Shown piece by piece: positions 3,542 through 62,112 of a stretch of 64,000 nucleotides of DNA. Position 1 is the first letter of the stretch. Every line of letters begins with the position of its first letter. The position numbers and the translations under genes were made by a program. The notes below the pieces were generated by a model that ran no database searches, had not been told where the DNA came from, and saw only the letters and a program-made list of their open reading frames with translations. The stretch comes from Paracoccaceae bacterium (GTDB taxonomy: Bacteria; Pseudomonadota; Alphaproteobacteria; Rhodobacterales; Rhodobacteraceae), in the NCBI GenBank assembly GCA_018222585.1, contig JAAFAB010000001.1:346198-410197 (forward strand). Reading direction: 5' to 3'.

Positions 3542-3561
3542 GGGACCCTGTCGAAATGGAT

Positions 3562-5848: not shown

Positions 5849-6351
5849 TGGGTGATCTCCTCGTCACAGGGGGCAAGGGTAAGCGCGGAATGTCCGAGGC
5901 TGGCCAGCGGCAGCTCGGTTCCGGCAACATGCAGCGTGTTCTTGAATTGCGCCTGGATGCGCAGCGGAATCGGGCCCGTATAGCGGTTCAGGTCGAGAAT
6001 GAAATGCCCATTCTCGTGCCGCCAGCCCGTCGCATCCATGTCGTTGGCGATCGAGGGCAACCCGGCGCCATGGGCCATGAAGACCTCGCTGGTCTGCAGG
6101 ATGCGACCGTCCTCGATGCGGTAGTGATCGGTCACCGGCGTGCGCGAGACGGAGTGGATGAAGCTTAGTGCGAAGGTGGCGTCAGGACCAAGCGGCACCC
6201 GCTTCACCAGCGCCTGCGTGCCCCGGGTCTCGCTGAGGCACAGCGAGGGCGCCCCTGAGGCTGCCTGCGCCGCTCCGAGGCCGATGGCAAGCAAAGGGGC
6301 GGCGGCACATGCCGCCGCCCCCGCCTGGCGCAGAAATCCGCGCAGGCTCAT
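5845..6351 (-). CDS. DUF1850 family protein of TAXI-TRAP cluster
   Basis: 168 aa with an N-terminal export signal (basic start, Ala/Leu-rich core, about 28 residues, ending near AQA). The remainder is a small beta-rich domain with the motif FIHSVSRTPVTDHYRIEDG, as in DUF1850 proteins, which are repeatedly found between TAXI binding proteins and fused TRAP permeases. Its ATG shares a base with the TAA of the binding protein (TAATG), and its TGA overlaps the permease GTG. I infer an accessory periplasmic role in the transporter; no biochemical function is known to me. Confidence 0.8.
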   Translation of the reverse strand: MSLRGFLRQAGAAACAAAPLLAIGLGAAQAASGAPSLCLSETRGTQALVKRVPLGPDATFALSFIHSVSRTPVTDHYRIEDGRILQTSEVFMAHGAGLPSIANDMDATGWRHENGHFILDLNRYTGPIPLRIQAQFKNTLHVAGTELPLASLGHSALTLAPCDEEITQ

Positions 6352-8290: not shown

Positions 8291-8291
8291 C

Positions 8292-9704
8292 ATGACCGCC
8301 CCCATGCTGACCGGCGCCCACTTCCGCCTTGCGCTGACCCCCGAGGGCTGGCGACGCAACCTCTCGGTGCATTTCGCCGCCGACGGCACGATCCGCGAGA
8401 CCATCGAGGATGGCAATCCGGCCGGCCTGCCGGTCTACGAGAACCCCGTCGTGCCCGGCGTCACCGACCTGCACAGCCATGCCTTCCAATATGCGATGGC
8501 CGGCCTTTCGGAGGTGCGCCGCAACCCGGTCGACAGCTTCTGGTCCTGGCGGGACATCATGTATTTCTTCGCCCTCACCCTCTCGCCCGAGGACATGCAG
8601 GCGATCGCCGCGCGTCTCTACCTGGCGCTGCTGAAGGGCGGCTACACCGGGATCGTGGAATTCCACTACGTCCACAATGACCTGGACGGCACGCCCTATG
8701 CCCGGCGCGAGGAACTGTCGCTGGCGATCTTCGAAGCGGCCCGGGCGACAGGGCTGGAACTGACCCACCTGCCTGTTTTCTACGCACATTCCAATTTCGG
8801 CGGAGAAACCCCGACCGGGGGCCAACGGCGTTTCATTCAGGATCTGGACGGCTATCACGCCATGCTCGACAGCCTGCGTGCACCCGCCGCCGAGGCTGGT
8901 CACGTCCTGGGCATCGCCCCCCATTCCCTGCGCGCCGCCACCCCCGAGGAGATCGCCCGCCTGATGCAGATGCGCGACGAGATGCTGCCCGGCTGCCCGG
9001 TGCATATCCATGTCGCGGAGCAGGTGAAGGAGATCGAGGATTCCCTGGCCTGGAACGGCCGCCGCCCGGTCGAACAGCTCTTCGACATCGCGCCGGTCGA
9101 TGACCGCTGGTGCCTGATCCACGCCACCCATCTGACAGATGCCGAGGTCGGCCAGATCGCCCGCTCGGGCGCCACCGTGGGCCTGTGTTCCATGACCGAG
9201 GCCAACCTGGGCGACGGCATCTTCCCGGCCACGGATTTCCTGGCGCAGGGTGGCGAATTCGGCATCGGTTCGGACAGCAATATCGCCACCTTCGCCGCGC
9301 AGGAACTGCAGCAGCTGGAATACAGCCAGCGCCTGCGCGACCGCCAACGCAACGTGCTGGCCTCCCCCGGCCAGCCCCATGTCGCCGCAAACCTCTGGAC
9401 CCGCGCGGCGCGGGGCGGTGCCCGCGCGGCGGGCCGCCCCGAGGGCGCCATCGCGCCGGGCGGCATGGCCAGCTTCGTCGAGCTGACCAGCCCCGAACCC
9501 GAGGCCCTGCTGCCGGTCGATCCCGAAGCCTGCCTGGACTTCCACGTCTTCTCCGGGCGCGGCTTCCACGTCGGCGACGTGGTTGTCCGGGGCCGCAAGG
9601 TCGTCCAGTCTGGCAGCCACCCGCAGGAAGAGGCGATCCTGGCGGAGTATGCCGCCGCCATGCGCCGCATCGCCGGCCGCCTCGACGACCGAAAGACGCG
9701 CTGA
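8292..9704 (+). CDS. hutF: Formimidoylglutamate deiminase (HutF)
   Basis: 470-aa amidohydrolase-superfamily enzyme that turns N-formimino-L-glutamate into N-formyl-L-glutamate and ammonia, the substrate of the preceding gene product. Metal and catalytic landmarks are DLHSHAFQ (about 58), HIHVAEQ (about 237), HATHL (about 276) and GSDSNI (about 326), as in the cytosine/guanine-deaminase-like HutF family. The start two bases after the hutG stop is preferred to an ATG inside hutG. The pair defines the deiminase-deformylase branch of histidine breakdown. Confidence 0.92.
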   Translation: MTAPMLTGAHFRLALTPEGWRRNLSVHFAADGTIRETIEDGNPAGLPVYENPVVPGVTDLHSHAFQYAMAGLSEVRRNPVDSFWSWRDIMYFFALTLSPEDMQAIAARLYLALLKGGYTGIVEFHYVHNDLDGTPYARREELSLAIFEAARATGLELTHLPVFYAHSNFGGETPTGGQRRFIQDLDGYHAMLDSLRAPAAEAGHVLGIAPHSLRAATPEEIARLMQMRDEMLPGCPVHIHVAEQVKEIEDSLAWNGRRPVEQLFDIAPVDDRWCLIHATHLTDAEVGQIARSGATVGLCSMTEANLGDGIFPATDFLAQGGEFGIGSDSNIATFAAQELQQLEYSQRLRDRQRNVLASPGQPHVAANLWTRAARGGARAAGRPEGAIAPGGMASFVELTSPEPEALLPVDPEACLDFHVFSGRGFHVGDVVVRGRKVVQSGSHPQEEAILAEYAAAMRRIAGRLDDRKTR

Positions 9705-9738
9705 CCGCGTGACGCCCCAGGAGGAGATACCCCAGCAG

Positions 9739-10488
9739 ATGGCGAAGGAACCCGACTACCGCTCCAACTCCCTGCTGCGGGGCCTCAGCATCCTGGAATG
9801 TTTCGATCACCGCCACGCCGAGATGAGCCTGTCGGAAATCGCCGAGGCGATCTCGGTCACCAGTTCCGCCGCCTATCGCTTCGTGGTGACGCTGGAGCGT
9901 GAAGGCTACCTGACCCGCAGCGACAACCGCTATCGGCTGGCGCCCCGGGTCATGGACCTCGGCTATCGCTACCTCGCCTCGCTGGATGTCTACGACGTGG
10001 CGCGCCTGCCCGCCGACGCGCTGCGCGACGCCACCGGCTTCACGGTGCATGTCGCGGTGCTGAAGGGCACGGAAATCGTCTATGTCTACCGCGCTCTGTC
10101 GGAGCGGGCGATGGTCTCCAACATCCCCGTCGGCACCCGCCTGCCCGCCTTCTCGACCACCATGGGACGGCTGTTGCTCAGCGACCTGCCGGACGACAGC
10201 CTGGAACAGCTCTTCGAGGGCTACCCCTTCGAGCGGATGAGCCAGGCCGCCCCGCGCTCGCTGGAGGCGCTGCGTCCCCTGCTGAAGGCCGACCGGGCGC
10301 GCGGCTACGTGGCGCAAAGCTCGCACCTGGCGACCGGCACCCTGTCGATCGCGGCCCCGCTGGTGTCGCGCCATGGGCGCTACGTCGCGGCGATGAACCT
10401 CTCGGGACACGAGATGCAGCTGACGCCCGACGAGGCGACCATCGACAGGGTGCTGGACACCGCACGCACCATCTCGCGGATGCTGTGA
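9739..10488 (+). CDS. IclR family transcriptional regulator
   Basis: 249-aa regulator. The N-terminal winged helix (about 10-75; SLLRGLSILECFDHRHAEMS, then SEIAEAISVTSSAAYRFVVTL) and C-terminal effector domain (about 90-249, containing GTRLPAFSTTMGRLLL) are typical of IclR. ATG at 9739 is used, downstream of AGGAGGAG; a GTG at 9709 is possible. Third gene after hutG-hutF, it probably controls these and the divergent TAXI-TRAP genes through the inverted repeat at 7430-7447. IclR rather than HutC as the local regulator is slightly unusual for hut genes. Confidence 0.88.
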   Translation: MAKEPDYRSNSLLRGLSILECFDHRHAEMSLSEIAEAISVTSSAAYRFVVTLEREGYLTRSDNRYRLAPRVMDLGYRYLASLDVYDVARLPADALRDATGFTVHVAVLKGTEIVYVYRALSERAMVSNIPVGTRLPAFSTTMGRLLLSDLPDDSLEQLFEGYPFERMSQAAPRSLEALRPLLKADRARGYVAQSSHLATGTLSIAAPLVSRHGRYVAAMNLSGHEMQLTPDEATIDRVLDTARTISRML

Positions 10489-10497
10489 CGCCCGGAC

Positions 10498-22415: not shown

Positions 22416-22486
22416 CGCAATGTGACTCGAAGCTTCTCTGCGTGATATGCCAAAAGCTGAAGCGAAACCTATGTGTTACCTTGAGC

Positions 22487-22535
22487 TATGGTGCCCCCAC
22501 ACGGACTCGAACCGCGGACCCACTGATTACAAATC
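22487..22535. repeat. attL, 49-bp partial copy of tRNA-Thr
   Basis: Identical over 49 bp to 62035-62083. It contains the tRNA 3' end through the anticodon loop but lacks the 5' half, so it is not a functional tRNA. It marks the left prophage junction. Confidence 0.93.
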
Positions 22536-43090: not shown

Positions 43091-44725
43091 TCAGGCACCG
43101 CCCTGCCCTCCCATGGCGGATGCCAGGTCGCGCACGACGCCCCCGCCGGTCTGGGCCGCCTGCATGGCCTGCTGCAGCTGCTGCTGCTGCGCGCGTCCCT
43201 GGGCGATCTGATCCGCCTCCTCGCGGGAACGCAGGATCCGCGCCGGCAACGTCGGACTGGCATCATGCAGCGCCTCGGTCAGCCCGTCCGGATCGACCCG
43301 ATCGACATAGCGGCTGTCGAGCTGCGCGAGCGGTGCGAGGTCATTGAGGAACTGCCGAATGGCCTGTCCCTCACGCGCCCGCAGCGCCATGGTCGCCTGG
43401 CTCTGGTATCGGACCTGGAGCGGCATGCCCTGGGCCTCTGACGGCGGCGGTGGGATTTGACCTGCGCGCCAGAGCATCCGGAAGCGCCGCTCGATCTTGC
43501 GCGCCCCGTATTCCTCCATGATCCGGTCGGCGTGCGGCGCCCAGTTGCGCAGGCGCGCCTCCTCCATGATCATGCTCTCCTCGCTGGTGATCCCGGTCCG
43601 GCCCGACAGAGACATGATCGCGTAGTGGTAGGCTTCCTTGATGGCCTCCACCTTGGCGCGTTTCTCCTCCATCGTCAGGCCGATGTTGGGATTGCTGGTC
43701 ATGTTGCGCACCAGCTCCTGGCCACGCATGTTGACGCCGCCGTAGAGCACCTCGCCGGGCCGGATCACCCCATCGAGCGGGATCGCGTCCCGATCGGGGG
43801 CAAGCTTCACCGGATCTGCGGCGAACTGCGCCGCCCGGATCGTCGCGGCCTCCATCTGGTGGACCATCCGGGCGCTTGCCAGGCTGATGAAGCCCGGCCC
43901 CGTGCCGTAGGTATGACCGCTGTCGACATCCCAGCGCGGGAAGTAGACCGGCATTTCACCATAGCCGCCGACCTTGACCAGCGCCCTGCCCTCCTCGCAG
44001 GCGGTGATCGACAGGAAGGGCTTGCCCCGATGGCCCAGCTTTCCCGGAACGAAGTCGTCATTAGGCAGGATATGCCGGTAGAAGGTGATCCGGCCGCTGT
44101 CGCGGTTGGCAGCCGCCTCCACCACCCGCTCAGGCAAGGCATCGCGGCCGAACTCGCGCACGGCCCCGCGCGGGGTGAGGGTGAACTTCCTCACCAGCTC
44201 GTTGACCCTGCCATGGGCATCGATATCGACCACCACCTCGGCCAGCGACATGGTCACGTCGACGAACTTGCGCTTGCCCAGGTCAATCTCGTCATAGCCC
44301 GCCGCGTTCCCGAAGGCCGCGATGTCGGAATAGGCCTGGAAGGTCGCGCTGTAGAAGGGCGATACCGTCGGCGCCAGGCTCTGCAGGACGCGGCGGGTTG
44401 CCAGGTCATTCCATTCGGCCATCGGCTTCCAGGCATTGAACTCGGGATCCGGCGTTTCCAGCCCGGCCCAGCGATTGGCCGGGTTGGTGATCGAGGCGTA
44501 GATCCCCGATGCAAAGCTGGACTGCGCCATGATTGGCTCCGAGGAGAGCGGTTTCTCCATCTCGCGGTTCTCCGGCCGGCTCATCGAGAAGCCGCCACGC
44601 TGCGGACGGATCAGCCGCGCGATGTCTTCCCAGTCCGGCTCGTGGAAGGCCCTGGTCGATTTCAGCTCACCCCAGCGCTGGATCGCCTCTTCGGCGGCCG
44701 GGTGGTTCAAGACAGCCTTGTTCAT
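43091..44725 (-). CDS. Portal (head-tail connector) protein
   Basis: 544 aa, T7-type podoviral portal. It begins with helical AAEEAIQRWGELKSTRAFHE and DIARLIRPQRGGF, continues with SSFASGIYASITNPANRW, a beta-rich stem and wing, and ends in a Gln/Ala-rich barrel (QQQQLQQAMQAAQTGGG, about 515-531). It makes the dodecameric ring through which DNA enters and to which the tail adaptor binds. Met at 44725 is chosen because it overlaps the stop of the preceding small gene. Confidence 0.88.
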   Translation of the reverse strand: MNKAVLNHPAAEEAIQRWGELKSTRAFHEPDWEDIARLIRPQRGGFSMSRPENREMEKPLSSEPIMAQSSFASGIYASITNPANRWAGLETPDPEFNAWKPMAEWNDLATRRVLQSLAPTVSPFYSATFQAYSDIAAFGNAAGYDEIDLGKRKFVDVTMSLAEVVVDIDAHGRVNELVRKFTLTPRGAVREFGRDALPERVVEAAANRDSGRITFYRHILPNDDFVPGKLGHRGKPFLSITACEEGRALVKVGGYGEMPVYFPRWDVDSGHTYGTGPGFISLASARMVHQMEAATIRAAQFAADPVKLAPDRDAIPLDGVIRPGEVLYGGVNMRGQELVRNMTSNPNIGLTMEEKRAKVEAIKEAYHYAIMSLSGRTGITSEESMIMEEARLRNWAPHADRIMEEYGARKIERRFRMLWRAGQIPPPPSEAQGMPLQVRYQSQATMALRAREGQAIRQFLNDLAPLAQLDSRYVDRVDPDGLTEALHDASPTLPARILRSREEADQIAQGRAQQQQLQQAMQAAQTGGGVVRDLASAMGGQGGA

Positions 44726-44907
44726 GCCGGCTGCCCCAACTGCCCGGTGGAGGGGATCCCCACCGCGCTGGTCAGAACGTTCGCTGCGGCACCGGAACGC
44801 CGGCGACGCAGCCGGGCCTCGATGTCGGCGCTCTGGTTGGCCTCGCGGTTGTCCGCCGAAGCCACGATGGGTTTTGCAGCCGAAACTTTCGGCGCGGAAA
44901 TGCACAT
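44722..44907 (-). CDS. Small phage protein preceding portal
   Basis: 61 aa starting CISAPKVSAAKP, basic C-terminal half (EARLRRRRSGAAANVLTSAVG). Short proteins of this kind, beginning Met-Cys and rich in Pro/Ala then Arg, often precede podoviral portal genes. AGGAG lies seven bases before the ATG, and its stop overlaps the portal start (ATGA). Function unknown. Confidence 0.65.
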   Translation of the reverse strand: MCISAPKVSAAKPIVASADNREANQSADIEARLRRRRSGAAANVLTSAVGIPSTGQLGQPA

Positions 44908-45718: not shown

Positions 45719-47479
45719 TCAGTGCCTTCCATAGGGGTTGAGGACGTTCCATCCTGTCTGCAGGCCGCCGCGCTTCTCCGACATGCGGGGCCCGCCGTTG
45801 TGGCCCATGCGGCCGTGCTGACGGGCGTCGGGCACCCGTTTCGTGTAGGGGGCGGATCCATCGGCGAGGTGCTCGGACAGCAGCAGGTACTGCAGCGCAT
45901 CCATCACGTTCGCCTCGGTCAGGCGCTTGTCTGGCACCTTCCGCTTGTCGCCGTTCCGATCGACCTCGTCCGTCCAGACGTACCGGGCCTGGAAGCCGCG
46001 CCGCAGGAACTTGCATGAGGGGTCGATGAGCAAACCGGGCTCGCCGGCGTCTACCGGGGCCTCAAGCGCCGCGCGCACGGCCTCGAGACGGGGCTGGATC
46101 CGGTTGGTTCCCAGCCGTTGCGGCCGGATCGGGAAGCCTGCGGCCTGGCTGACCATCAGGTTCCAGGTCGCATTCTCGTCCGCCGCCTGGCTGGACCCAT
46201 GTTCGCCGGCCATGTCGCCCCAGCCCGCCTCGACGAGGGCACCGGGCCAGCGCTCCTCGATCAGCTCCTGCAGGCGCTGCCCGAATGTCCGGGCCATCAG
46301 GCGCTCGGACGGGAAATGCAGCTCGCCCAGGATCCGCCAACGGAAGAACCCGGTCAGCTGGGCGATGACGGCCGCCCCCTTGAAGCCCTGGTCCAGGCCA
46401 ACCCGCAGCGGCAAGCCCGGGATCAGCGCCAGCGGCACGTCCGAAACATGGACCCGGGGGCTGAACTCGCGCTTGAAGACCGGCTCCCCGACCCGCAGGT
46501 AGACGATCTTGTTGCGGACCAGGCGATCGACCATGTCGCCCCGCCCTGCCAGCTGCATCGAGGCGATCTGGCGCGGGTAGTAGCTCGGCGAGAGGTTCTG
46601 CAGGTTCTCGCAGCCGGGCTCGCCGTAGCCTGGCTGATTGCAGAACTCGATCGTGATCCGCTTGGCGCCGGCAGGCAGCTCGGCCGAGAGCAGATCGGCC
46701 ATGCGCTTGCGCTCTTCGCCGTCGTGGAAGACCGTGAAGCCCCAGTTGTCCTCGTCCGGCGCGTTCATGTCGCCCACGATCTGCCCGTAGCTGCGCAGCT
46801 CGGGCGGCAGACCCTCGAAATGCTGGCGCCCCGGGTAGCGGTCGATCCGGCCGATCCCGACGGTCAGGATCTCGACCGGCATCGTGTCGAGCTCGTTCAG
46901 GACGATGTCGGTGGTCTGCACGCCCCGCATGCTGGCGATGATGTCATCGCCGAAGGCCATGAACTCGGCGGTGAACTCGATCGGGCCATACTCATCCTCG
47001 AAGCGGATGACGTGGGTGACCGGGTCGCCACGGCCGCCAGACCAGGTGCCGAGGTCCTTCGGGAAGGTCTCCAGGTAGGACGGGATCGTGGTGGACCACA
47101 GCTGACGGTAGGTTTCGCGGATGAACAGCACCTTGTAGCGGCGCACCCCGTCGATCGTGGACTGGGGCATCTCGACCGCGCGCCTGGCGCGGGACTTCAT
47201 CAGCGTCGTCGTCTTGCCCGAGCCCACCGGGCCCTGGATGGCGATCACGTCATCGTTCGACCAGAAGAAGCGCTCGGCGATCGGGCCCGGGAACTGGACC
47301 GCGCCGATATCGGGCATCTTGCCAGAGGCGAAATCCCCCTCTAGGCTCTCGATTGCCTCTTTCGCATCGCTTCCCTGCAATGCCTCCAGACGATCGTCCG
47401 AGATCCCCCGGCCCCCCGTGGGTGTCGAGCCAGAGGCCTCCCCCCGACCCCGATCCACCGTCCCAAGTGTCGCGCTCAT
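45719..47479 (-). CDS. Terminase large subunit
   Basis: 586 aa DNA-packaging motor. The N-terminal ATPase has Walker A GPVGSGKTT (about 83), Walker B-like TDIVLNELD (about 190) and an expected coupling motif after it. The C-terminal RNase H-like nuclease starts with GLDQGFKGAAVIAQ (about 365), whose Asp is a metal ligand. It works with the upstream small subunit on the portal ring. The packaging mode (cos or headful) cannot be read here. Confidence 0.9.
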   Translation of the reverse strand: MSATLGTVDRGRGEASGSTPTGGRGISDDRLEALQGSDAKEAIESLEGDFASGKMPDIGAVQFPGPIAERFFWSNDDVIAIQGPVGSGKTTTLMKSRARRAVEMPQSTIDGVRRYKVLFIRETYRQLWSTTIPSYLETFPKDLGTWSGGRGDPVTHVIRFEDEYGPIEFTAEFMAFGDDIIASMRGVQTTDIVLNELDTMPVEILTVGIGRIDRYPGRQHFEGLPPELRSYGQIVGDMNAPDEDNWGFTVFHDGEERKRMADLLSAELPAGAKRITIEFCNQPGYGEPGCENLQNLSPSYYPRQIASMQLAGRGDMVDRLVRNKIVYLRVGEPVFKREFSPRVHVSDVPLALIPGLPLRVGLDQGFKGAAVIAQLTGFFRWRILGELHFPSERLMARTFGQRLQELIEERWPGALVEAGWGDMAGEHGSSQAADENATWNLMVSQAAGFPIRPQRLGTNRIQPRLEAVRAALEAPVDAGEPGLLIDPSCKFLRRGFQARYVWTDEVDRNGDKRKVPDKRLTEANVMDALQYLLLSEHLADGSAPYTKRVPDARQHGRMGHNGGPRMSEKRGGLQTGWNVLNPYGRH

Positions 47480-48764: not shown

Positions 48765-50735
48765 TCAGACGAAATCTCTCATGTCAGGGGGTTCGGGGCG
48801 CTCAGGGGCCTGCGACGTGCCGCCGGTCTCATCCATGGCGTTCAGCAGGCCCGGGATCGAGGTGAAGGGGATGACGTAGCCGCGCGAGGGAACCCGGGCG
48901 AAGGTCATGTTCGCGCTCTTGGCGTCCTTCACCCGCCGCGCCGCCTGGGCCCAGACGCCGGCCGCCCAGGGCGTGCCCTCGAAGAGCCCGCAGAGCCCCG
49001 ACAGCGGCTTGTTCGCGATGCAAAGCTCGGCCGAGGTATCCCGGCCCTTCACCCGCAGCCCGAACTGCGCCAGGAAGTTGTTGGCGTTGTCGCTGGTGGC
49101 GTCGCCGATCTGCTCCGGGGCACGGGGGAGACGGCCGGCCATGGCCAGCCAGCTGGCCACGTTCAGCTTCTGGCCGCGTCGCCACACATCGAGCGGCTGA
49201 GACAGCAGATGCACCAGCATGTCCTCGGCGTTGCTGCCCACATCGACGCTCTCGTCGCGCAGGTGTGCGTCCAGCTTGGCGCACCAGCTCGCCATGACCT
49301 CCTCGGCCGGCAGCGCCTCGTGCAGGGCCATGTCGGCCAGCGCCAGGACGGTGCCGTAGTTGTCCGCCTGGCGCCCGCCGTGGCCATGGGCCGCAAGGCT
49401 GGCGCGCCAGAGGTCGAGGCGCTTCGTCCAGGTATCCCAGCGGCCCACCAGGCTGGCGCGCAGGGAGGCGCCGAGGGCCTTAAGGCGTCGGGGATCATCC
49501 TTCGGCTTCGGCGCGTCCGGGCGCAGCCGGTTCAGATCCAGCAGGATGAGGCGAGAGCGGTCCTGTGGGGGCAGCGGGGGCACCAGGATCGAGGAGAACA
49601 GGAAGCAGCTGTAGGCGTTGCCCTGGTAGCCCTTCTGATCGGTCGAGCCGCGCAGGATCTGGTCGCCGCTGGCCGCGATCCGCGCCAGGCGGATGATCGC
49701 CGCGGCCTTGCCCTTCTTCGGGTCATCGTCGGGCTCGAGCTCGTCCAGGGCGACGGGCATCGAGGAATAGCCGATGACCGATCGGATGCCGGCCTCGGTC
49801 GCGTCTGATGCCTGCAGCAGCCCGCTGGCGCCACCGTGCAGGTAGCGCAGCAGCCGCTGCAGGGTGGACTTGCCGGTGGCCTGGTCACCGGTCACCCAGG
49901 TCACGGGCCGCCAGTCCAGGGCCCCGCCGATCTGCTGCGCGCAGATCACGCCGAGGGTCAGCATCGGATCGATGTCGGGCCGGGACCAGTTCCAGGTCTG
50001 CAGCGCATCGAGGATCTCGCTCGCCGCCTCGGCCGTGCCTGACGTCGCAGGACGGGGCACGGGGTCCGAGGCCGGGTAGACATGACCACCGTAGACGCCA
50101 GGCGGCTCCCATTTGCCGGCGATCAGCACCTCGTCGCCGGCGTGGAAGATCAGGTGACCGTCCTCGTCCAGCCAGGCGCCGGCGCCGCGCACCTTGCCGA
50201 CAGGTGACCAGACGCCCCGCTCGGTACAGGCCGCAACCATGTCGGTGGCGATCCTGCCCTGGTCGAAGGCGCCGGCGACCGGCGTGGTGCTGTTCTTGTG
50301 GTAGCGCGGGTAGCGAGTGGCCAGCAGGCCGATCCGGCCGCCGAAGATGTGCCGGATCTTGTCCTGGGAATGGTTGTCGACAGCCCTCAGCTGGCCCTTG
50401 GTGTCCAGGTAGTAGGAAAGATCGCCGTGGATCCCCAGAGGAACGACCGGACACCCGTCCCAGATGTAGCCACGCGGTCGGCCCTTGCCACCCGATCCAT
50501 CGCGATCGCCAGCTTCTGCCTTGCCGCCCACGCGCTTCCGGCCACGGCCTCGATCATCGTCTTTCGGCTGTCCCCGACCATCTCCATCGTCATCCTTCGG
50601 TCCTTTCTCTGCGCCAGGCGCGGGCGGAGCCTCCTCAAGCCCACGCCGCAGGGCTGCAGCGGAACGTTCGTCGTCCCGCCGATAGGTCGCCGGCTGGGGG
50701 TCGCTCAACCAGCTCATGTCCGCTTCATCGGTCAC
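48765..50735 (-). CDS. Phage replication P-loop ATPase/helicase-like protein
   Basis: 656 aa. A charged low-complexity N-terminus (Asp/Arg/Gly-rich, about 35-85) is followed by a domain around GYIWDGCPVVPLGIHG, and a RecA/SF3-like ATPase with Walker A WVTGDQATGKSTLQ (about 277) and acidic VALDELEPDDD (about 327). The C-terminal 100 residues (NNFLAQFGLRV to SNMTFARVPSRG-like region) recur as a separate protein at 57148. It is the last gene of the early operon and borders the iteron region, so it is probably the replicative helicase or initiator. Confidence 0.8.
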   Translation of the reverse strand: MTDEADMSWLSDPQPATYRRDDERSAAALRRGLEEAPPAPGAEKGPKDDDGDGRGQPKDDDRGRGRKRVGGKAEAGDRDGSGGKGRPRGYIWDGCPVVPLGIHGDLSYYLDTKGQLRAVDNHSQDKIRHIFGGRIGLLATRYPRYHKNSTTPVAGAFDQGRIATDMVAACTERGVWSPVGKVRGAGAWLDEDGHLIFHAGDEVLIAGKWEPPGVYGGHVYPASDPVPRPATSGTAEAASEILDALQTWNWSRPDIDPMLTLGVICAQQIGGALDWRPVTWVTGDQATGKSTLQRLLRYLHGGASGLLQASDATEAGIRSVIGYSSMPVALDELEPDDDPKKGKAAAIIRLARIAASGDQILRGSTDQKGYQGNAYSCFLFSSILVPPLPPQDRSRLILLDLNRLRPDAPKPKDDPRRLKALGASLRASLVGRWDTWTKRLDLWRASLAAHGHGGRQADNYGTVLALADMALHEALPAEEVMASWCAKLDAHLRDESVDVGSNAEDMLVHLLSQPLDVWRRGQKLNVASWLAMAGRLPRAPEQIGDATSDNANNFLAQFGLRVKGRDTSAELCIANKPLSGLCGLFEGTPWAAGVWAQAARRVKDAKSANMTFARVPSRGYVIPFTSIPGLLNAMDETGGTSQAPERPEPPDMRDFV

Positions 50736-50970: not shown

Positions 50971-51260
50971 CGCCACCACCGGGCCGCCAGGGCCGCAAGG
51001 CCGGTCCTGCGCCGCACCGGCTCAGCCATCGCGCGCATGCGCGCATCGGAGGCCTCGCGTGCGGCAACCGCCTCGGCCTCGGCCGCGGTCATTCGATCCA
51101 GCCGGCTGGCAGCCTGCCGCGCCTGCGCCGGCGACATCATAGTGTTGAGGCAGACCATTCCGTCCTCGCCGGCCGCCGCGGCGACCCGTAGACGGCCAGC
51201 CAGGGCGCCGACCCATTCGTCGCCGGTCTGGAAGCTTCGATCCTTCAGCTGATAGTTCAT
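50967..51260 (-). CDS. Hypothetical phage protein
   Basis: 97 aa. N-terminal NYQLKDRSFQTGDEWVGALA is followed by an Ala/Arg/Met-rich helix pair (QARQAASRLDRMTAAEAEAV). GGAGGAG eight bases before the ATG, and overlap with both neighbours (ATGA), argue that it is real. No family recognised. Confidence 0.6.
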   Translation of the reverse strand: MNYQLKDRSFQTGDEWVGALAGRLRVAAAAGEDGMVCLNTMMSPAQARQAASRLDRMTAAEAEAVAAREASDARMRAMAEPVRRRTGLAALAARWWR

Positions 51261-52423
51261 GCGCTTCGCTCCTCCTTGTCCGCACCGGTGGTGACCTGGC
51301 GCAGCGCGTCGTTGAGATCCTTCCCGCCCCAGGTGTTCCGCCACAGGCGGACCTCCCGGCCGGCGGCGCGATGCAGCTCGATCGCGCGATCGAGCGCGGA
51401 ACGGGCAGCGGTGTTCTCGTCCTGGTCGGCAATGAGGGTGACCCTCGAGACCGTCGGGGGCAGCTGGATCCGGCCGAGGTTCGACAGCGAAATCGCCGCG
51501 AGCACCCGCGCTTCGCCCTCGAGCAGCAGCACGGCCGAAAGCGCGTCCTCGATCCCTTCGGCGATGTAGACATGCTGCCCGGGCTCCGCCTGGTGCAGGG
51601 CCGCCGGCTTGCCACCGCGTGGCCCCCTGCCCTTCCAGATCGGGATGTAGGCGCCCGCATAGTCGCCAAGCACCTTCTTCGGCGCCGGCACCGCGGCCTT
51701 GCCCCAGCCGTTCGGGCCGATGGCCAGCCAGGTGCGGTGACAGGCCACCGTCTTCCCCTGGCGGTCCGTCACGGCCGCGACCATGGCGGGATAGTCACCT
51801 TCGAAGATCTCCCCGGTGTCGGGATCCTCGTGGTAGTAGCGGCAATGCGAGACGTAGCGCAGGACGCCGGGCTGGCGGCCCAGGCGTGACAGGTCGATCC
51901 CCCGGCCGCGCAGGTAGCGATCCACCGGGGTGTCGCGCAGCTGAGCGCGCCCGCTGTGCCAGATGGCCCGGGCGGCCCGGGCGCGGCCCTCGCGCTTCTC
52001 CTGGTCACGTGCGACCGCCTCGGCCTGCAGGCGCTTGGCCCGCTCTGCGGCCTGCCGGTGCCGCGCCACATCCTCGGCGCTGGCCGTCTGCAGGCCAAGG
52101 AAGGCCCGGGCCTCGCGCAGAGCTTCCGTGTTGCTGCAGCCGAGAGAAAGGGCGATCAGGTCGATCACGTCGCCGAAGCCCTGCCCCGGCACATCGCCCA
52201 CGGCATAGTCGTTCCAGCGCCCCGCGCTCGGCCCGGACATGGTGATGCAGAAGCTGCCCACCCGGCGATCGGCCCGCCCGGGGTTGAGGGTGAAATACTT
52301 GCCATGGGCGCGATGGCTCCCCTCCGCCGGCGGCGCATAGCGCGCGACGACGCCCTCCAGCTGCGCGATCAGCATGTGCTTGATCTCGTCGAGGCTGTAG
52401 GTCTGGCGGAGAGGAGCGGGCAT
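51257..52423 (-). CDS. TOPRIM-domain phage primase (DUF7146-type)
   Basis: 388 aa. The N-terminal part carries a primase-like fold (YFTLNPGRADRRVGSFCI, GRWNDYAVGD), without an obvious complete zinc finger. The middle has RAIWHSGRAQLRDTPVDRYL (DUF7146-like). The C-terminal TOPRIM has catalytic Glu in YIAEGIEDALS (about 284) and Asp pair in LIADQDEN (about 327). It would make RNA primers for phage replication together with the helicase-like protein. Stop and start overlap neighbours. Confidence 0.85.
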   Translation of the reverse strand: MPAPLRQTYSLDEIKHMLIAQLEGVVARYAPPAEGSHRAHGKYFTLNPGRADRRVGSFCITMSGPSAGRWNDYAVGDVPGQGFGDVIDLIALSLGCSNTEALREARAFLGLQTASAEDVARHRQAAERAKRLQAEAVARDQEKREGRARAARAIWHSGRAQLRDTPVDRYLRGRGIDLSRLGRQPGVLRYVSHCRYYHEDPDTGEIFEGDYPAMVAAVTDRQGKTVACHRTWLAIGPNGWGKAAVPAPKKVLGDYAGAYIPIWKGRGPRGGKPAALHQAEPGQHVYIAEGIEDALSAVLLLEGEARVLAAISLSNLGRIQLPPTVSRVTLIADQDENTAARSALDRAIELHRAAGREVRLWRNTWGGKDLNDALRQVTTGADKEERSA

Positions 52424-52701
52424 TACTCGACCACCACCCAGTCTTCGGCCAGCATGTCGGTCTGGCTGGCCAGCCAGCCCGTCAGGATCTTGCGATCCGC
52501 GGTCATCATGCGGATCGAGCCGAGGGCCTCGATCTCGCCACCGTTCGCTTCGGCGACTGCTTTCAGGTGCTCTTCACGGCACCATTCCGCCTTGATGGTG
52601 GCTGCGGGCAGCAGCCAAAGATACATCCCCTTGCCGTTCCAGCCTTGCCGGGCGACCTTGGCGCCTGCCTTCAGCGCGCGCAGCGCGTCTCCGAAATCCA
52701 T
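52423..52701 (-). CDS. DUF2829 protein, candidate Tad2-type anti-Thoeris factor
   Basis: 92 aa. DFGDALRALKAGAKVARQGW, with NGKGMYLWLL directly after, and C-terminal LTGWLASQTDMLAEDWVVVE fit DUF2829. Known members of this family include Tad2, which sequesters the signalling nucleotide of Thoeris defence. Whether this copy binds such a ligand is inference. It sits between primase and a DNA-binding-like gene in the early operon, where anti-defence genes are expressed soon after infection. Confidence 0.8.
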   Translation of the reverse strand: MDFGDALRALKAGAKVARQGWNGKGMYLWLLPAATIKAEWCREEHLKAVAEANGGEIEALGSIRMMTADRKILTGWLASQTDMLAEDWVVVE

Positions 52702-52704
52702 GTC

Positions 52705-53565
52705 CTACTCCTTCACGGGTTGTGTCTGGCCGGCCCTGTGCTGCAGGACCTTCAGCAGACGGGATTGCGCCTCGAAGCCCGGTTCGGGGCAGAGCAAGGC
52801 GAAACGTTGCCGGCAGTCCTCGAGCGACAGGCCCAGGTCGCCTGCCACTGCGGGCAGCTTGCGGCCACCGGTGAGGCCGGCGATCAGCTGGTAGTCGAGC
52901 TCGGGGGTCCAGGGCGCCTGGTAGCCGGCGGCGTTCAGATGGGCTTGCACCAGCTTCATCGCGACCGGCGCATCCTTCGGCAGGGCAGCGGGCGTGAAAT
53001 CAGCCACCGCTTCAGCAGGGGCTTCGGTGCCTTCCGGTGCGTGGCCGCACGCCTCCTGGCGATCGCCCTGCCCCGCATCCGGCGCCGTGTCGTCGTCCTC
53101 GATCTCCTCTTCGACCTTGCGACGAAGGTGGCGCATCTTGAGGTTCAGCGAGGCGGCGGGCCGGTTCAGCGCGGCCGCGATTTCCTTGAGCGAGGCCCCA
53201 CGCGCATCAAGCTCGAGCGCCTCGGCCTCCTCGTCTTCGGTCCAGGGGCCGGTGTGCAGCTCCGGTGCGGGATCGGCTACAGGCACCGCGTCGTCCTGCA
53301 GGACCTCGGCCTGTGGGGTTTCGGCCTGCATCAGGCTCAGAGCGTCGCCCATGGTCGGACCCGAGGCGAGCTCGTATGTAACCACCATGGGGTCGAACAC
53401 GGTCACCCGCAGCACCAGCGCGCCGCCGATGACCTGCAGCTCGACCGGCAGAGCCAGGACCCGCACCGCCTCGGCGGCTGTCTCGACCAGGTCGACCGCC
53501 CGCTGGCGGGCCTGGGCCTCGATCATCTCACGGTTCAGCTCGGCCTTCAGCGCGTCCAGGCTCAT
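52705..53565 (-). CDS. Phage protein with two Myb/SANT-like helix-turn-helix motifs
   Basis: 286 aa. Two related tri-helical segments are visible: TGPWTEDEEAEALELDARG with SLKEIAAALNRP (about 103-148) and APWTPELDYQLIAGLTGG with KLPAVAGDLGLS (about 216-262). Each starts with the Trp-Thr-acidic pattern of Myb-like DNA-binding repeats. A flexible acidic linker joins them. It could bind the iterons or early promoters. The role is inferred from fold-like pattern only. Confidence 0.65.
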   Translation of the reverse strand: MSLDALKAELNREMIEAQARQRAVDLVETAAEAVRVLALPVELQVIGGALVLRVTVFDPMVVTYELASGPTMGDALSLMQAETPQAEVLQDDAVPVADPAPELHTGPWTEDEEAEALELDARGASLKEIAAALNRPAASLNLKMRHLRRKVEEEIEDDDTAPDAGQGDRQEACGHAPEGTEAPAEAVADFTPAALPKDAPVAMKLVQAHLNAAGYQAPWTPELDYQLIAGLTGGRKLPAVAGDLGLSLEDCRQRFALLCPEPGFEAQSRLLKVLQHRAGQTQPVKE

Positions 53566-53900
53566 GCCGCTTCCTCCCGGGTGTGGGTGGAGCTGCGCAT
53601 GACCTCCTGGGCCTCACCCAGGCGCCATTCGACGATCCGGACCAGCGCGTCCTTCATGCGCCACATGGCCGAACTCCAGTCGCCCCGCCGGCGCCCGACG
53701 CCGCTGTCCGCCTCGACCAGCTCCTTGGCGGCCGCGAGGAAGGGATCGAACAGCGGCCGCCCCTCGCGCATCCGCGCCGCCTCGAGGCGGAGGATATCGA
53801 GGTGCATGCGCTCGCGGCCCGCATCGGGAACCACGGTCAGCACCAGGGCCAGCGCGGCATTCACCGCGATCTGGTCGGACATCGTCATACGCTCAGTCAC
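53562..53900 (-). CDS. Hypothetical early phage protein
   Basis: 112 aa, helical, soluble, with RERMHLDILRLEAARM and WSSAMWRMKDALVRIVEWRL. The GTG at 53900 has AGGAGG seven bases upstream. It overlaps both neighbours by a few bases, so it belongs to the early operon. No family recognised. Confidence 0.6.
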   Translation of the reverse strand: MTERMTMSDQIAVNAALALVLTVVPDAGRERMHLDILRLEAARMREGRPLFDPFLAAAKELVEADSGVGRRRGDWSSAMWRMKDALVRIVEWRLGEAQEVMRSSTHTREEAA

Positions 53901-54186
53901 CGGAGATCCTCCTTGCGTTCTCGCCGACCTCGGCCAGCGTCAGATGATGAATGCCGTCGGTCAGGGCCTTCCCTGCCGCCGCGCGTTGCGCCGCATCTCG
54001 TCCCGCCACCTGCAGCGCCTGGCGGAAATCCAGGATCAGCGCCCGCAGGGTGCTGGTCTCGTCCAGCGCCTCGGCACTGCAGCGCAGATCCTCCAGCAGC
54101 CGCTGGTCCACCTCGGGCGAGTGGCGGGCCTGCATCCCGGCCACCCAGGCGCGGGTCTTCAGGAAGGTTTCGTCACGGCCGACCAT
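53893..54186 (-). CDS. Hypothetical early phage protein
   Basis: 97 aa, helical (RLLEDLRCSAEALDETSTLR, ALILDFRQALQVAG). Met at 54186 is chosen; the longer reading frame upstream is Arg/Pro-rich and crosses the terminator. It is the first gene of the early operon after the terminator at 54375-54415. Function unknown. Confidence 0.55.
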   Translation of the reverse strand: MVGRDETFLKTRAWVAGMQARHSPEVDQRLLEDLRCSAEALDETSTLRALILDFRQALQVAGRDAAQRAAAGKALTDGIHHLTLAEVGENARRISGD

Positions 54187-54474
54187 GATCGGCCCCCGGA
54201 CGGGCGCAGCCGGGAGCCGCCCTGGTCCCGGCCGCGCCCTGGCCGCCGCCCCGCCCCGAAGGAAAGGCGGTCTGCTCGGCGGCGGTGTTTCGGCGCGGGC
54301 GCGGGCCTTGCCCGCATCTGACCCGTCCCGCGCCCGGCCGAGGGGCAATCGCCCCTGCAGCCGATGGGAATTGGAAAAGGTCCCGGCGCGCAGAAGAGAG
54401 CATGCGCGCCGGGACAGTGATCCCGTCCGCCGAGGCAGAAGTCTGATGAGGACAACAGGCGGACAGGGGGAGGT
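54187..54474. other. Leader between Cro-like gene and early operon
   Basis: 288 bp without a supportable gene. It contains the minus-strand terminator at 54375-54415, then very GC-rich DNA up to the first early gene. A place for read-through control or antitermination. Confidence 0.45.
54375..54415 (-). terminator. Rho-independent terminator after Cro-like gene (tR1-like position)
   Basis: 12-bp perfect stem (54380-54391 with 54404-54415; GTCCCGGCGCGC and complement) and 12-nt loop. On the minus strand it is followed by C then TTTT (54378-54375). It would stop leftward early transcripts about 60 nt after the Cro-like stop. Confidence 0.75.
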
Positions 54475-54789
54475 TCATTGCGCGGCCACCTCCGAAGGCA
54501 GCAGCGGCACGGAGGTCGCGCCCTGGTGGGCGGCGATCGCAGCCTCGACCAGGGCCGCATCGGCGCCCCAGATCAGCCACTCGGGCCGAAGCGGCAGGTC
54601 ATGCGCGCTGGCATGGGCCAGGATGCTGCGCACCACGCCCATGCTGGGGAAGTCGCCCTCGCGCCGGCGGCTGGTCGAGTGGCGCCACCCGTAGCCGGTC
54701 TTGTCGGAATAGCCGCATATCAGGGCGATCTTCTCGATCGGCCCGATGATGCGTTCGGCTACAGCCACTGGTGTCAGGTGGTTACTCAT
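54475..54789 (-). CDS. Cro-like / YdaS-type HTH regulator
   Basis: 104 aa. Residues 5-45 (LTPVAVAERIIGPIEKIALI, GYSDKTGYGWRHSTSRR) read as an N-terminal HTH of the YdaS/Cro type. A Trp/Leu-rich tail follows (LPLRPEWLIWGADAAL). It is divergent from the repressor with about 97 bp between starts, and is first of the leftward early transcript, the lambda Cro position. The ribosome site is weak. Confidence 0.7.
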   Translation of the reverse strand: MSNHLTPVAVAERIIGPIEKIALICGYSDKTGYGWRHSTSRRREGDFPSMGVVRSILAHASAHDLPLRPEWLIWGADAALVEAAIAAHQGATSVPLLPSEVAAQ

Positions 54790-54886
54790 GACACCAGACT
54801 TAGCGCACGCACAATTTGCATTGCAATACACATTTTGAGCTTTTCACTCATGCATGTGCAGCAAGGCGCACTTACTTGATGTCACG
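54790..54886. promoter_or_regulatory. Immunity operator region between Cro-like gene and repressor
   Basis: AT-rich 97-bp gap. A dyad TTGCA-T-TGCAA (54816-54826) lies in the middle and could be an operator. On the minus strand TTGCAA, 17 nt, GCTAAG is a possible early promoter. A second ATG (54854) upstream of the chosen repressor start is also in frame. Confidence 0.45.
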
Positions 54887-55582
54887 ATGGATGACAAATG
54901 GTTCAAAACACAGCAGAAGAAGGCGGGAGTAACCGCCGAGGAGATCGCCGCCAAAATGGGGCGCGATCGCTCGGTCGTCTCTAGGATCTACACCGGCCGG
55001 CAGAAGATGTCGCTCGAATGGGCTCAGGCGTTCGCAGAGGTCCTGAATGTTCCGATAGACGAAGTTCTGCGCCATGCCGGCATCGTCTACGACCCACTCA
55101 CTCGCAGCGACCTGGTCGCAAGCGAAGACGGCATCCAACAGGTGCCCGTGCGGAAGGAAGCATTTCTAGCCCCGCAACACGCAAGGCGCATCAGGGACAG
55201 CCAAGCGGACGCCGACGCCCTCCCACTGAGCGGCAGCAACCACCACATTCTTCAAGCCAAAGCCACAGCCCAGACTCTTGCGCGCATGGGGGAAGGCATG
55301 GAGATCTGGACCGTAACAACGGGCGCAATGCTGCTCTCAGGATACATCCCTGGCGACTTCATCATTGTAGATCGCGATAGCTCCGAAACCTGCAAGTCCG
55401 GCGACACAGTCCTTGCCGAGATCCGCCACCGCAACAGCTCGGGCTTCAAGACCGCCCTTCGACGATACCAGGCACCTGTTCTGGTAGCCGACAGCACCGA
55501 TCCGGAGCATAGGGAAATCAACGTAGTAGATACGGTTAACACGGTTATACGGGGAAAGGTCATTGCATCTTGGAGGAGATGA
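54887..55582 (+). CDS. CI-like prophage repressor (HTH plus S24-like C-terminal domain)
   Basis: 231 aa. The N-terminal HTH (about 1-65) has VTAEEIAAKMGRDRSVVSRI. The C-terminal domain (about 115-231) has LSGYIPGDFIIVDRDSSE and KSGDTVLAEI, the outline of the S24/LexA fold. I do not see the Ser-Met catalytic dyad expected at LSGYIPGD, so RecA-stimulated self-cleavage is doubtful. Start at 54887 is uncertain (54854 also possible); no clear ribosome site, so it may be leaderless. It should maintain lysogeny by blocking the divergent Cro promoter. Confidence 0.85.
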   Translation: MDDKWFKTQQKKAGVTAEEIAAKMGRDRSVVSRIYTGRQKMSLEWAQAFAEVLNVPIDEVLRHAGIVYDPLTRSDLVASEDGIQQVPVRKEAFLAPQHARRIRDSQADADALPLSGSNHHILQAKATAQTLARMGEGMEIWTVTTGAMLLSGYIPGDFIIVDRDSSETCKSGDTVLAEIRHRNSSGFKTALRRYQAPVLVADSTDPEHREINVVDTVNTVIRGKVIASWRR

Positions 55583-57720: not shown

Positions 57721-57992
57721 CAGACGCCACCCCGATCTTCATCCCGACCGCCGAGGTCGCGCAGCTGCTGCAGATGTCCCTGCCCAGCTTCAATGCCAAG
57801 CGCGACTGGCTGGAACGAGACCACGATTTCCCCCCGCCGATGCCGCACTCCAAGCGGCCGCTGCTCTGGCGCCGCACCGCGATCTTCGCCTGGATCGAAC
57901 GCCAGGGCCTCGCCCCCACGGATCAGCAGCACCAGGCACCCATCCCGAAGACCAGGGCCGACAGGCTCATGCAGAAGGCAGCAAGCGCATGA
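57717..57992 (+). CDS. Excisionase-like HTH protein (AlpA/MerR-type)
   Basis: 91 aa. Residues 5-60 (FIPTAEVAQLLQMSLPSFNA, PPPMPHSKRPLLWRRTAIFA) are a winged HTH of the AlpA/excisionase type: the first helix scans for a start, and the Lys-Arg-Pro-Leu-Trp turn is typical. GGAGG lies seven bases before the ATG and ATGA links it to the gene before. Two genes upstream of integrase, it probably controls excision direction. Confidence 0.75.
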   Translation: MTDATPIFIPTAEVAQLLQMSLPSFNAKRDWLERDHDFPPPMPHSKRPLLWRRTAIFAWIERQGLAPTDQQHQAPIPKTRADRLMQKAASA

Positions 57993-58312
57993 AGGACTTT
58001 GCCGACCGATCCCACCGCCAGCTGGTGCTGAGCGCCGCGGACGAACTCGAGGCCATGGTCGCGGGGCTCACGCCCTTCGATCTCGACGACTACGAGGCCA
58101 GCCGCCGCCGGCAGCGCGACGAGCTGCGGGAGCTCAAGCACGCCCTGGAAACCCGTCGCGATGCGCCGGCGAAGATCAGCGAAGGCATCACCGGTGTCTT
58201 CTTCTCCATGCTGGGCTTCCGCGCCTCCAGCACCAGCGGCCTGCCCGGCGCGATCGACAACTGGATCGCTCAGGTGCGCCAGAAGGCCGGCGCCCGGGAG
58301 ACCATCCAGTGA
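57989..58312 (+). CDS. Hypothetical phage protein between excisionase and integrase
   Basis: 107 aa, charged helical (LVLSAADELEAMVAGLTPFD, RRRQRDELRELKHALETRRD) with a less polar C-terminus (GITGVFFSMLGFRASS). It overlaps both neighbours by four bases. Function unknown; may help integrase or excisionase. Confidence 0.6.
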   Translation: MKDFADRSHRQLVLSAADELEAMVAGLTPFDLDDYEASRRRQRDELRELKHALETRRDAPAKISEGITGVFFSMLGFRASSTSGLPGAIDNWIAQVRQKAGARETIQ

Positions 58313-59499
58313 GCCGGACCCGCAAGCCACCGATCACCGACAAGGTCACGGGCCTGCGCCAGCGCCAGCGTGCGGATGGCAGCTGGCGGGTCTGGTGGGA
58401 ACCGACCGCGCCGCAGCGGGATCTCGGCTTCTGTTCGATCGAACTCGACGTCGACCGCCCGAGCTGGACCGTCACCCAGGCCAGGCGCGAGGCCGAGAAG
58501 GCCCGGCGGGCGCAGCGCGACGGCGTCGGCCCGGACGAGGCGCGCCGCGGCCACCGCACCGTCGGGGCGCTGATTGCCGGCTACCGCCAGGACGAGCTCG
58601 ACCAGGTCAAGCCCGCGACGCAGCGCAGCTACCGCGGCTGGCTGAAGGTCATCGAGGAGAAATGGGGCGACGAGCTGGTCGGGGATCTGACCCACGGCGT
58701 GATGTATCGCTGGGGCAAGAGCCTGCAGCGCGAGCGCGGCCAGACGCAGGCGAAGCGCCTGATCGCCATGATGTCGATCCTCATGTCCTACGCCGAGCGG
58801 ATCGAGTGGCGCGCCCACAACTCCAACCCCTGCCTGCGCCTCGGGCTCGAGGTGCCGGCGCCGCGCAGCAGGATCCTGACCACCGACGAGCTCGCCGCCC
58901 TCGAGGCCGCGGCCGTGGATCTCGACACCCCGCGCGCCCGGGCCGTGGCCGATGCCATGCGCCTCTCGCTCTTCCAGGGCCAGCGCCAGGCCGATGTCCT
59001 GGCTGCCCGGGTCGGTGCGTTTCGCCAGGTCACCTGGTCCGCCCTCGAGGGCGACCGCGTCATCGAGCGCAAAGGCTGGGCCTGGATCTTCACCCGCGCC
59101 AAGCGCGGCACCGAGGGCGGCCTGCCCGTCCATCCCGAGAACCTGGCGCTGATCGAGCGCCGGCACCGCGAGACCAATGATCCCGACGCCCTGCTGCTGC
59201 CCGGCCGCAATGGCCTCTGGCGGATCGACGAGTTCCAGAAGGACTGGGCCGCGCTGCGCAAGCGCGCCGCCGAGACGCTGGCCAGCTGCGCCACCATCCA
59301 GTTCCGCGACCTGCGCCGCACCGGCGCCGTCTGGGCCCGCCAGGGCGGCGCCTCGAAAAGCGACGTGGGCGACGTCCTGGGCAACACGGCCGCGCAGAAC
59401 GCGCAGCTGACGACCACCTACATGCCGGCAAGCTTCGAGACCTCGAGCCGCGCGATCGGCGCGATCCGCCGGCCCGGCCGAGAAGAGGACGAGACATGA
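58309..59499 (+). CDS. int: Tyrosine recombinase integrase
   Basis: 396 aa. An N-terminal arm-binding region (1-75) and core-binding SAM-like domain (about 85-165; KPATQRSYRGWLKVIEEKWG) precede the catalytic domain. Visible catalytic residues are Arg in SLFQGQR (about 225), Arg in FRDLRRTGAV (about 333) and Tyr in TTTYMP (about 369). The usual His before DLR is Arg, and the usual Gly-His is Gly-Asn (DVLGNTAAQ). GTG start at 58309 overlaps the preceding stop. It is the only recombinase here and lies 2.5 kb from attR. Confidence 0.9.
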   Translation: MSRTRKPPITDKVTGLRQRQRADGSWRVWWEPTAPQRDLGFCSIELDVDRPSWTVTQARREAEKARRAQRDGVGPDEARRGHRTVGALIAGYRQDELDQVKPATQRSYRGWLKVIEEKWGDELVGDLTHGVMYRWGKSLQRERGQTQAKRLIAMMSILMSYAERIEWRAHNSNPCLRLGLEVPAPRSRILTTDELAALEAAAVDLDTPRARAVADAMRLSLFQGQRQADVLAARVGAFRQVTWSALEGDRVIERKGWAWIFTRAKRGTEGGLPVHPENLALIERRHRETNDPDALLLPGRNGLWRIDEFQKDWAALRKRAAETLASCATIQFRDLRRTGAVWARQGGASKSDVGDVLGNTAAQNAQLTTTYMPASFETSSRAIGAIRRPGREEDET

Positions 59500-61992: not shown

Positions 61993-62034
61993 CATACACA
62001 AGCATACGGAAAATTTGTTTTGTTTTCAGTGAGT

Positions 62035-62083
62035 TATGGTGCCCCCACACGGACTCGAACCGCGGACCCACTGATTACAAATC
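62035..62083. repeat. attR, 49-bp repeat within tRNA-Thr
   Basis: Right copy of the attachment core, identical to 22487-22535. The phage supplies the 3' part of the tRNA from here to the anticodon loop, so the gene stays intact. Confidence 0.93.
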
Positions 62084-62112
62084 AGTTGCTCTACCAGCTG
62101 AGCTATAGGGGC
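62037..62112 (-). tRNA. tRNA-Thr (anticodon UGU)
   Basis: A complete cloverleaf on the minus strand: acceptor GCCCCTA pairing with TGGGGGC, D arm with CAGCTGGTAGAGC, anticodon stem ACTGA/TCAGT around loop TTTGTAA (anticodon TGT), T arm with TTCGAGT, and encoded CCA. It reads ACA codons. Its 3' half is the prophage attachment site. Confidence 0.95.

Follow-up and report, generated by a model that had tools for sequence, protein, structure and literature searches.

A Tad2-like gene with an apparently exchanged middle in a prophage of a Paracoccaceae bacterium that carries Thoeris and CBASS

The tad2 locus and its prophage

The window, that is, the whole 64,000-nucleotide stretch analysed here, contains a prophage of about 39.6 kb (22482–62083), bounded by a 54-bp direct repeat with one mismatch and integrated at a tRNA gene. 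Its minus strand carries a short gene, tad2, between a primase gene and a gene whose product weakly matches DNA-binding proteins; a repressor-like gene diverges from these genes on the plus strand. A collinear prophage in Oceanicola sp. S124 (L091), with 87–97% identity over matched blocks, serves as the main reference below. The features of the locus are as follows.

52423..52701, minus strand: tad2, encoding a 92-aa Tad2-like protein (PF11195); intact open reading frame (ORF) of 92 codons
52708..52713, minus strand: Shine-Dalgarno-like AAGGAG of tad2, read in the sequence; overlaps the end of the upstream ORF
52705..53565, minus strand: upstream ORF, possible DNA-binding protein (PHROG 323 "D5-like regulator", E 5.7e-6; PHROG 31591 "HTH DNA binding", E 3.8e-5)
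51257..52423, minus strand: primase (DUF7146 and Toprim_3; PHROG 510 DNA primase)
53562..53900 and 53893..54348, minus strand: two small ORFs, no Pfam match, 99% identical in S124
54475..54831, minus strand: ORF that probably opens the early operon; no match in Pfam or PHROG
48765..50735, minus strand: helicase/primase-type protein (PHROG 21086 unknown; PHROG 35358 DNA primase)
45719..47479, minus strand: large terminase (PHROG 2, E 2.3e-8)
43091..44905, minus strand: connector (PHROG 332 "head-tail adaptor", E 3.9e-122)
54854..55582, plus strand: repressor-like protein, divergent from the early operon (HTH_31; PHROG 4 transcriptional repressor, E 5.6e-12)
57793..59499, plus strand: integrase (PHROG 1, E 2.8e-27)
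62037..62112, minus strand: tRNA-Thr(tgt), integration site
62030..62083, plus strand: attachment-site repeat, overlapping tRNA-Thr
22482..22535, plus strand: attachment-site repeat at the far end, 54 bp, one mismatch to 62030–62083

A sequence-only reading of this DNA had proposed a DUF2829 gene at 52423–52701 within an early operon. The ORF is intact at exactly these coordinates, on the minus strand, and the family assignment holds, with PF11195.14 (Tad2-like) scoring 84.2 bits against a cut-off of 25. The gene is tightly packed: the stop codon of the upstream ORF (52705–52707) lies 3 bases ahead of tad2, and the tad2 stop and the primase start share one base (TAATG). A profile search with the upstream ORF gave no Pfam match. 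Judged from gene order, tad2 looks like a member of an early replication operon in a prophage that also carries packaging, connector, repressor and integrase genes, and its position next to the primase and divergent from the repressor-like gene fits the early-operon placement.

Two related loci contain additional pieces of the helicase/primase gene. On the minus strand of L197 (5539–5868), a piece about 37% identical to residues 505–624 of the window ORF 48765–50735 lies between integrase and repressor; L196 (1–300, minus strand) has the same helicase/primase piece beyond the repressor, together with a full helicase/primase ORF.

Family, fold and pocket loops

PF11195.14 covers residues 1–91 of the product (profile positions 1–73 of 73; E 9.3e-24). 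With E values up to 1 admitted, seven distinct sequences in the PDB match; each is a Tad2/AcrIIA7 protein with E 3.4e-13 or lower, and they include HgmTad2/AcrIIA7, SptTad2, ModTad2 and SPO1 Tad2. An AlphaFold monomer model (pLDDT 96.6, pTM 0.82), built on an alignment of the window sequence with those of 105 of the 123 non-redundant loci (106 sequences), was compared with solved structures by VIA-align on Foldseek's picks in a single search. Among 412 aligned chains, the top ten solved entries are all Tad2/AcrIIA7 (Z 11.4–13.3) and the next best reaches Z 5.6. The Tad2-like identity, for which the sequence-only reading had recommended a structure comparison, is thereby upheld, only Tad2 structures matching strongly; a chance ORF is ruled out by the Pfam, PDB sequence and fold matches. 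For description, we divide the gene into three parts, with secondary structure taken from the model.

52624..52701, minus strand: constant N shell, codons 1–26; helix 3–11, strand 15–18, loop with WNGKGM; 97% nucleotide and 100% amino-acid identity to S124
52480..52623, minus strand: putative exchangeable cassette, codons 27–74; strands 27–31 and 34–37, helix 44–52, strands 56–59, 62–66 and 72–74
52426..52479, minus strand: constant C shell, codons 75–92, GWLASQTDMLAEDWVVVE; protein identical in S124, with the 51 bases from W76 100% identical in DNA

Seven columns are invariant in the 106 aligned sequences (F3, R18, W21, W76, D82, D87 and W88) and 20 further columns are conserved at ≥90%; only M65 and A68 of these 27 columns belong to the cassette, the other 25 to the shell. 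The loops predicted to frame the ligand pocket are kept, with invariant W21, W76 and D82 and near-invariant N22, G23, K24, M26, S79, Q80 and T81. Absent pocket residues had been named as grounds for refuting the assignment; at the level of loops, both W21-N-G-K-G-M26 and G75-W-L-A-S-Q-T-D-M-L84 are present and identical to the HgmTad2 sequence. Family, fold and conserved pocket loops together support the gene product as a Tad2.

According to PMC12043709, the pocket for cyclic ADP-ribose isomers (gcADPR) is formed by the β1–β2 and β3–β4 loops, strand β4, the β4–α3 loop and helix α3, and the cyclic-dinucleotide site is an insertion between β2 and β5 that is independent of it. In our mapping onto the model, the predicted gcADPR site would consist mostly of residues 19–26 and 75–84, with a contribution from the cassette end at about residues 67–74. 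The model also has a long insert, residues 32–61, between strands 27–31 and 62–66. The middle of the window gene spans 49 aa, the range in 283 distinct homologues being 29–73.

Comparison with individual Tad2 structures places the window protein closest to SptTad2 bound to cGG (8wjd; Z 13.3, rmsd 2.1, 92/92 residues aligned, 44% identity), which shares the shell motifs and the presence of the insert. SptTad2 differs in that its aligned stretch is 5 residues longer, its insert has another sequence and its ligand is seen in the structure. HgmTad2/AcrIIA7 (8kbi, 8kbj and 8kbk, Z 11.8–12.6; 9kzr by sequence) has the identical pocket motifs and a middle about 11 residues longer. The name AcrIIA7 goes back to its first description, as an inhibitor of type II CRISPR-Cas. 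The type member, SPO1 Tad2 gp34.65 (8sme, 8smf, 8smg and 8wje; Z 11.4–11.9), matches in family and is shorter, without the long insert. As the title of entry 8kbj indicates, HgmTad2 was crystallised with 1′,2′-cADPR.

Family membership alone does not fix the ligand, because ModTad2 (9eib and 8v3e; Z 11.9–12.1), which shares family and fold, has His-ADPR as its ligand according to the title of 9eib and PMC13299392. The window protein might by analogy bind His-ADPR and block type II Thoeris, and its family and fold agree with those of ModTad2 (9eib: Z 12.1, 85 aligned). Its C shell, however, reads GWLASQTDML, as in HgmTad2 and one residue from SptTad2 (GWLASQTDMQ), clearly unlike the WTPSVSDIL of ModTad2, and the Thoeris of the host is of the SIR2-STALD type. 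We consider a ModTad2-like function improbable.

Host Thoeris and CBASS operons

The window assembly contains one Tad2, one TIR/ThsB gene and two SMODS cyclases. The defence loci, each on a contig of its own, are as follows.

Contig C2 (L166), 313–2294: thsA and thsB, type I Thoeris; the contig's other end is a plasmid backbone common to Actibacterium and Pseudosulfitobacter
Contig C30 (L167), 7662–10497: CBASS with CD-NTase (AGS_C, DncV-like) and HNH-SAVED endonuclease (PDLC00739, E 5.9e-158)
Contig C46 (L168), 3634–6795: CBASS with CD-NTase, HORMA, TRIP13 and NucC

The conjecture that the host might carry Thoeris proved correct. On contig C2, a 479-aa ThsA (PADLOC model PDLC00407, E 2e-189; solved ThsA 6lhx, E 5.5e-148) lies adjacent to ThsB (PDLC00419, E 2.3e-60), and the domains of type I Thoeris, PF13289 and PF18185 in ThsA (SIR2-STALD) and PF13676 and PF08937 in ThsB, all score over their cut-offs. 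ThsA has N109 in TTNYD and H149 in YKMHGD, and ThsB has E108 in WCPWE, which we take to be the catalytic residues. The first 12 kb of contig C2 are lower in G+C than the window (57.2% vs 66.4%); 17 kb are 98.8% identical to plasmids of Actibacterium, Pseudosulfitobacter and kin, with 103 of the 138 matching records typed as conjugative, and 8 kb match a congener at 99%. Contamination as the source of the Thoeris genes is disfavoured by the plasmid and congener matches, and the contig is most simply read as a plasmid or island of this lineage. Since the lysogen presumably keeps the early operon silent, the presence of Thoeris in the same genome is no proof that the putative sponge acts on that copy.

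CBASS systems in which a CD-NTase is paired with an HNH-SAVED effector use 3′2′-cGAMP, and NucC uses cA3. The main target of the window Tad2 might be a CBASS cyclic dinucleotide, with gcADPR binding secondary or lost. This would agree with the nearest fold being that of SptTad2 with cGG, with one host CD-NTase being nearest a cGAMP synthase and CdnG among solved structures, and with the genus-wide counts: of 22 genomes, 10 have CBASS-type SMODS cyclases and one, the window genome, has STALD (the ThsA domain). The gcADPR-pocket loops are nevertheless intact, and the NucC-type CBASS should escape Tad2, because Tad2 lacks trinucleotide binding according to PMC12043709. We regard a primarily anti-CBASS role as rather unlikely. 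With Tad2 present in just two of the 22 genus genomes, the window genome included, a link of cassette type to host defence was dropped; a search of the S124 draft genome (91% complete) gave no STALD match.

Next to the CBASS genes of contig C30, a Tle1-like phospholipase gene (4470–5633) and a 622-aa ORF lie upstream. On contig C46, a WYL-like ORF (2642–3577) and a resolvase-like ORF (2040–2597), both labelled by eye, lie beside the CBASS operon.

Replacement of the middle of tad2

The S124 Tad2 agrees with that of the window in prophage type, gene position and shell DNA (97–100%), but in place of codons 27–74 it has another cassette, of 51 residues. Identity between the two drops abruptly at codon 27 and recovers at codon 75, falling in between (codons 27–72) to 46% in nucleotides and 30% in amino acids, while the best flank matches reach 89.1% (304 bases, upstream) and 97.4% (500 bases, downstream). 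The window cassette is instead 93% identical in amino acids to that of L002, an uncultured phage; the N shells of these two share just 73%.

Phylogenies of 40 hand-picked alleles were compared for cassette and shell. The cassette tree groups the window with L002 at a support of 78 (not starred). Window+L091 and L002+L284 are both rejected by it (AU p 1e-64 and 6e-40, respectively); L053+L119 remains acceptable (p 0.68). In the shell tree, with its 129 columns, neither window+L091 (p 0.59) nor window+L002 (AU p 0.317) is rejected. These comparisons point to an apparent exchange of the middle half of tad2 with other phages.

The cassette differences could in principle reflect ordinary fast divergence, since the middle is the least conserved part of the family: mean amino-acid identity is 0.26, vs 0.66 and 0.75 for the shells (4000 random pairs among 283 distinct homologues). 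Gradual change fits poorly with the sharp edges at codons 27 and 75 between near-identical shells and flanks, or with a window cassette shared with L002 despite the differing N shell. Cassette identity is moreover bimodal among flank-matched pairs, and the same two cassette types interchange at two gene positions (window/S124 and L002/L284), as detailed below. We judge divergence without recombination very improbable, and retain exchange of the cassette as the reading.

The generality of the replacement was assessed in 389 sequences (388 loci and the window), 382 of which have the anchors (286 distinct genes), the other 7 being without clear anchors or at an edge. Some loci represent the same contig fetched twice (e.g., L053/L214), and events rather than rows were counted. 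With both flanks required to be ≥80% identical over ≥150 bp, and loci with <200 bp of flank left out, 179 pairs were obtained, 50 of them non-identical. Gapped cassette identity in these 50 is ≥0.84 for 46 and ≤0.59 for 4, with none between. The 4 low-identity pairs represent three events: window/L091, L002/L284 and L053 (= L214)/L119. The pairs fall into 71 flank groups; of the 15 that hold two or more tad2 genes, 3 have a replaced cassette and 12 do not. The two cassette types that distinguish window and L091 also replace each other in L002/L284, in that case at the terminase–connector position; the exchanged stretch is longer there, because the N shell differs too (0.78). L053/L119 swap a 50-residue for a 35-residue middle, that is, one with for one without the long insert.

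Six named phages were also compared, out of seven considered (Ruegeria phage 45A6 was left out): three from Gamaleyavirus, two from Drulisvirus and one from Guernseyvirinae. The set was chosen partly for differing match lengths, and no rate is derivable from it. The E. coli phages PhAPEC7 and PGN829.1 have the replacement pattern, with identities of 0.92 in the N shell, 0.59 in the cassette and 0.90 in the C shell, and flanks at 0.87 and 0.89. IME11 has the cassette type of PGN829.1 (0.87); the pair IME11/PhAPEC7, with a cassette identity of 0.59, was not counted, as the downstream flanks are unmatched (0.56). The Drulisvirus pair PWKp9B/myPSH1235, with tad2 flanks at 0.91 and 0.93, was rejected as a cassette-only exchange, the whole gene being different (N 0.68, middle 0.71, C 0.78). 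L120/L153 (cassette 0.56) was likewise not counted, with 89.2% identity over 406 bp upstream and no downstream match.

In the literature covered, which comprises titles, openings of abstracts and passages of PMC12043709, PMC13299392, PMC11722364 and PMC12657218, we found no mention of Tad2 cassette exchange; the main Tad2 structure papers lie outside this scope, and the exchange may already be in print.

Distribution and placement of tad2

A family-wide search of 295 genomes gave tad2 matches in 5, the window's own included; 2 are weak, one of these with in-frame stops. Genome G309, taken as Oceanicola sp. S124, belongs to the same genus as the window assembly, and S124 is listed as Roseobacteraceae. 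In a congener (G296), the matches to the regulator and primase genes end 13 bases apart and enclose no tad2, at 52% identity to the window over the regulator's last 130 residues and 79% for the primase. Prophages of Mameliella, Salipiger and Palleronia with related primase and terminase genes have tad2 between terminase and connector. Being absent in G296 and placed elsewhere in these prophages, tad2 is, by gene content, an accessory gene with at least two positions in this phage group.

Among named genome contigs, the best whole-gene matches (best 80 of 84) are to a Prevotella and a Lachnospiraceae MAG at 71% each and to Bacteroidales at 63–68%. A recent cross-phylum transfer of the whole gene was considered and rejected: the shell is nearest the S124 prophage, and the cassette is nearest L002 (93%) vs 57–70% for these gut genomes. 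The terminase and connector of L002 resemble those of the window. The homologue searches returned the best 80 of, in turn, at least 588, 84, at least 595, at least 593 and 458 relatives, and the locus set is no census.

A proposed two-ligand sponge

These findings make it likely that tad2 encodes an early-made anti-Thoeris gcADPR sponge, with an exchangeable cassette that would set a second, cyclic-dinucleotide specificity. The protein would be made early after infection or induction, from within the replication operon. Other Tad2s are tetramers. We infer that the window protein too would form a tetramer and hold the cyclic ADP-ribose isomers made by the TIR protein ThsB; ThsA would then stay off, and NAD+ would not be burnt before phage release, protecting the phage from Thoeris. 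The gcADPR pocket would come mainly from the conserved shell, through the W-N-G-K-G-M loop and the G-W-L-A-S-Q-T-D-M-L segment, and the insert, which forms a cyclic-dinucleotide (anti-CBASS) site of its own in other long-insert Tad2s, would lie in the cassette. By recombining at the conserved ends, phages would replace the cassette and thereby change or toggle the second specificity, with anti-Thoeris activity presumably kept.

Panoptes is a guard that senses cyclic-dinucleotide sponges. In a more tentative extension, which we hold to be possible though doubtful, Tad2 would be a two-part sponge whose fixed shell keeps most of the gcADPR pocket, while homologous recombination at the two conserved motifs swaps the cassette. 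Each swap would re-aim the protein at another CBASS cyclic dinucleotide, or allow escape from guards such as Panoptes, with the Thoeris counter-defence kept.

Taken alone, the gene adds an ordinary new member to the Tad2 family; the paired host systems and the cassette exchange add interest. To the sequence-only reading, the analysis adds the minus-strand orientation, a possible cyclic-dinucleotide ligand class, the two CBASS operons and the cassette exchange. With prophage, Tad2, Thoeris and two CBASS operons in one assembly, both the defences and the counter-defence are open to testing with native components. Window/S124 and PhAPEC7/PGN829.1 are natural cassette swaps with nearly the same shell and different middles, and such pairs would show directly whether a nucleotide sponge chooses its ligand through a swappable module.

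Other Tad2-like loci

According to PMC13299392, P015 of Sinorhizobium phage AP-20-A, an alphaproteobacterial lytic podovirus, is Tad2-like and closest to MoTad2 (50.5%). In the Drulisvirus phages PWKp9B and myPSH1235 (L436 and L437, about 1486–1752), tad2 lies between capsid and tail genes and is unannotated in myPSH1235. The L120 and L153 contigs come from a single Clostridia MAG, and their tad2 genes may represent two prophages, or paralogues, within one cell. At L052/L053 and L058/L095, the Tad2 ORFs have long C-terminal extensions, giving fusions of 178 and 221 aa in total.
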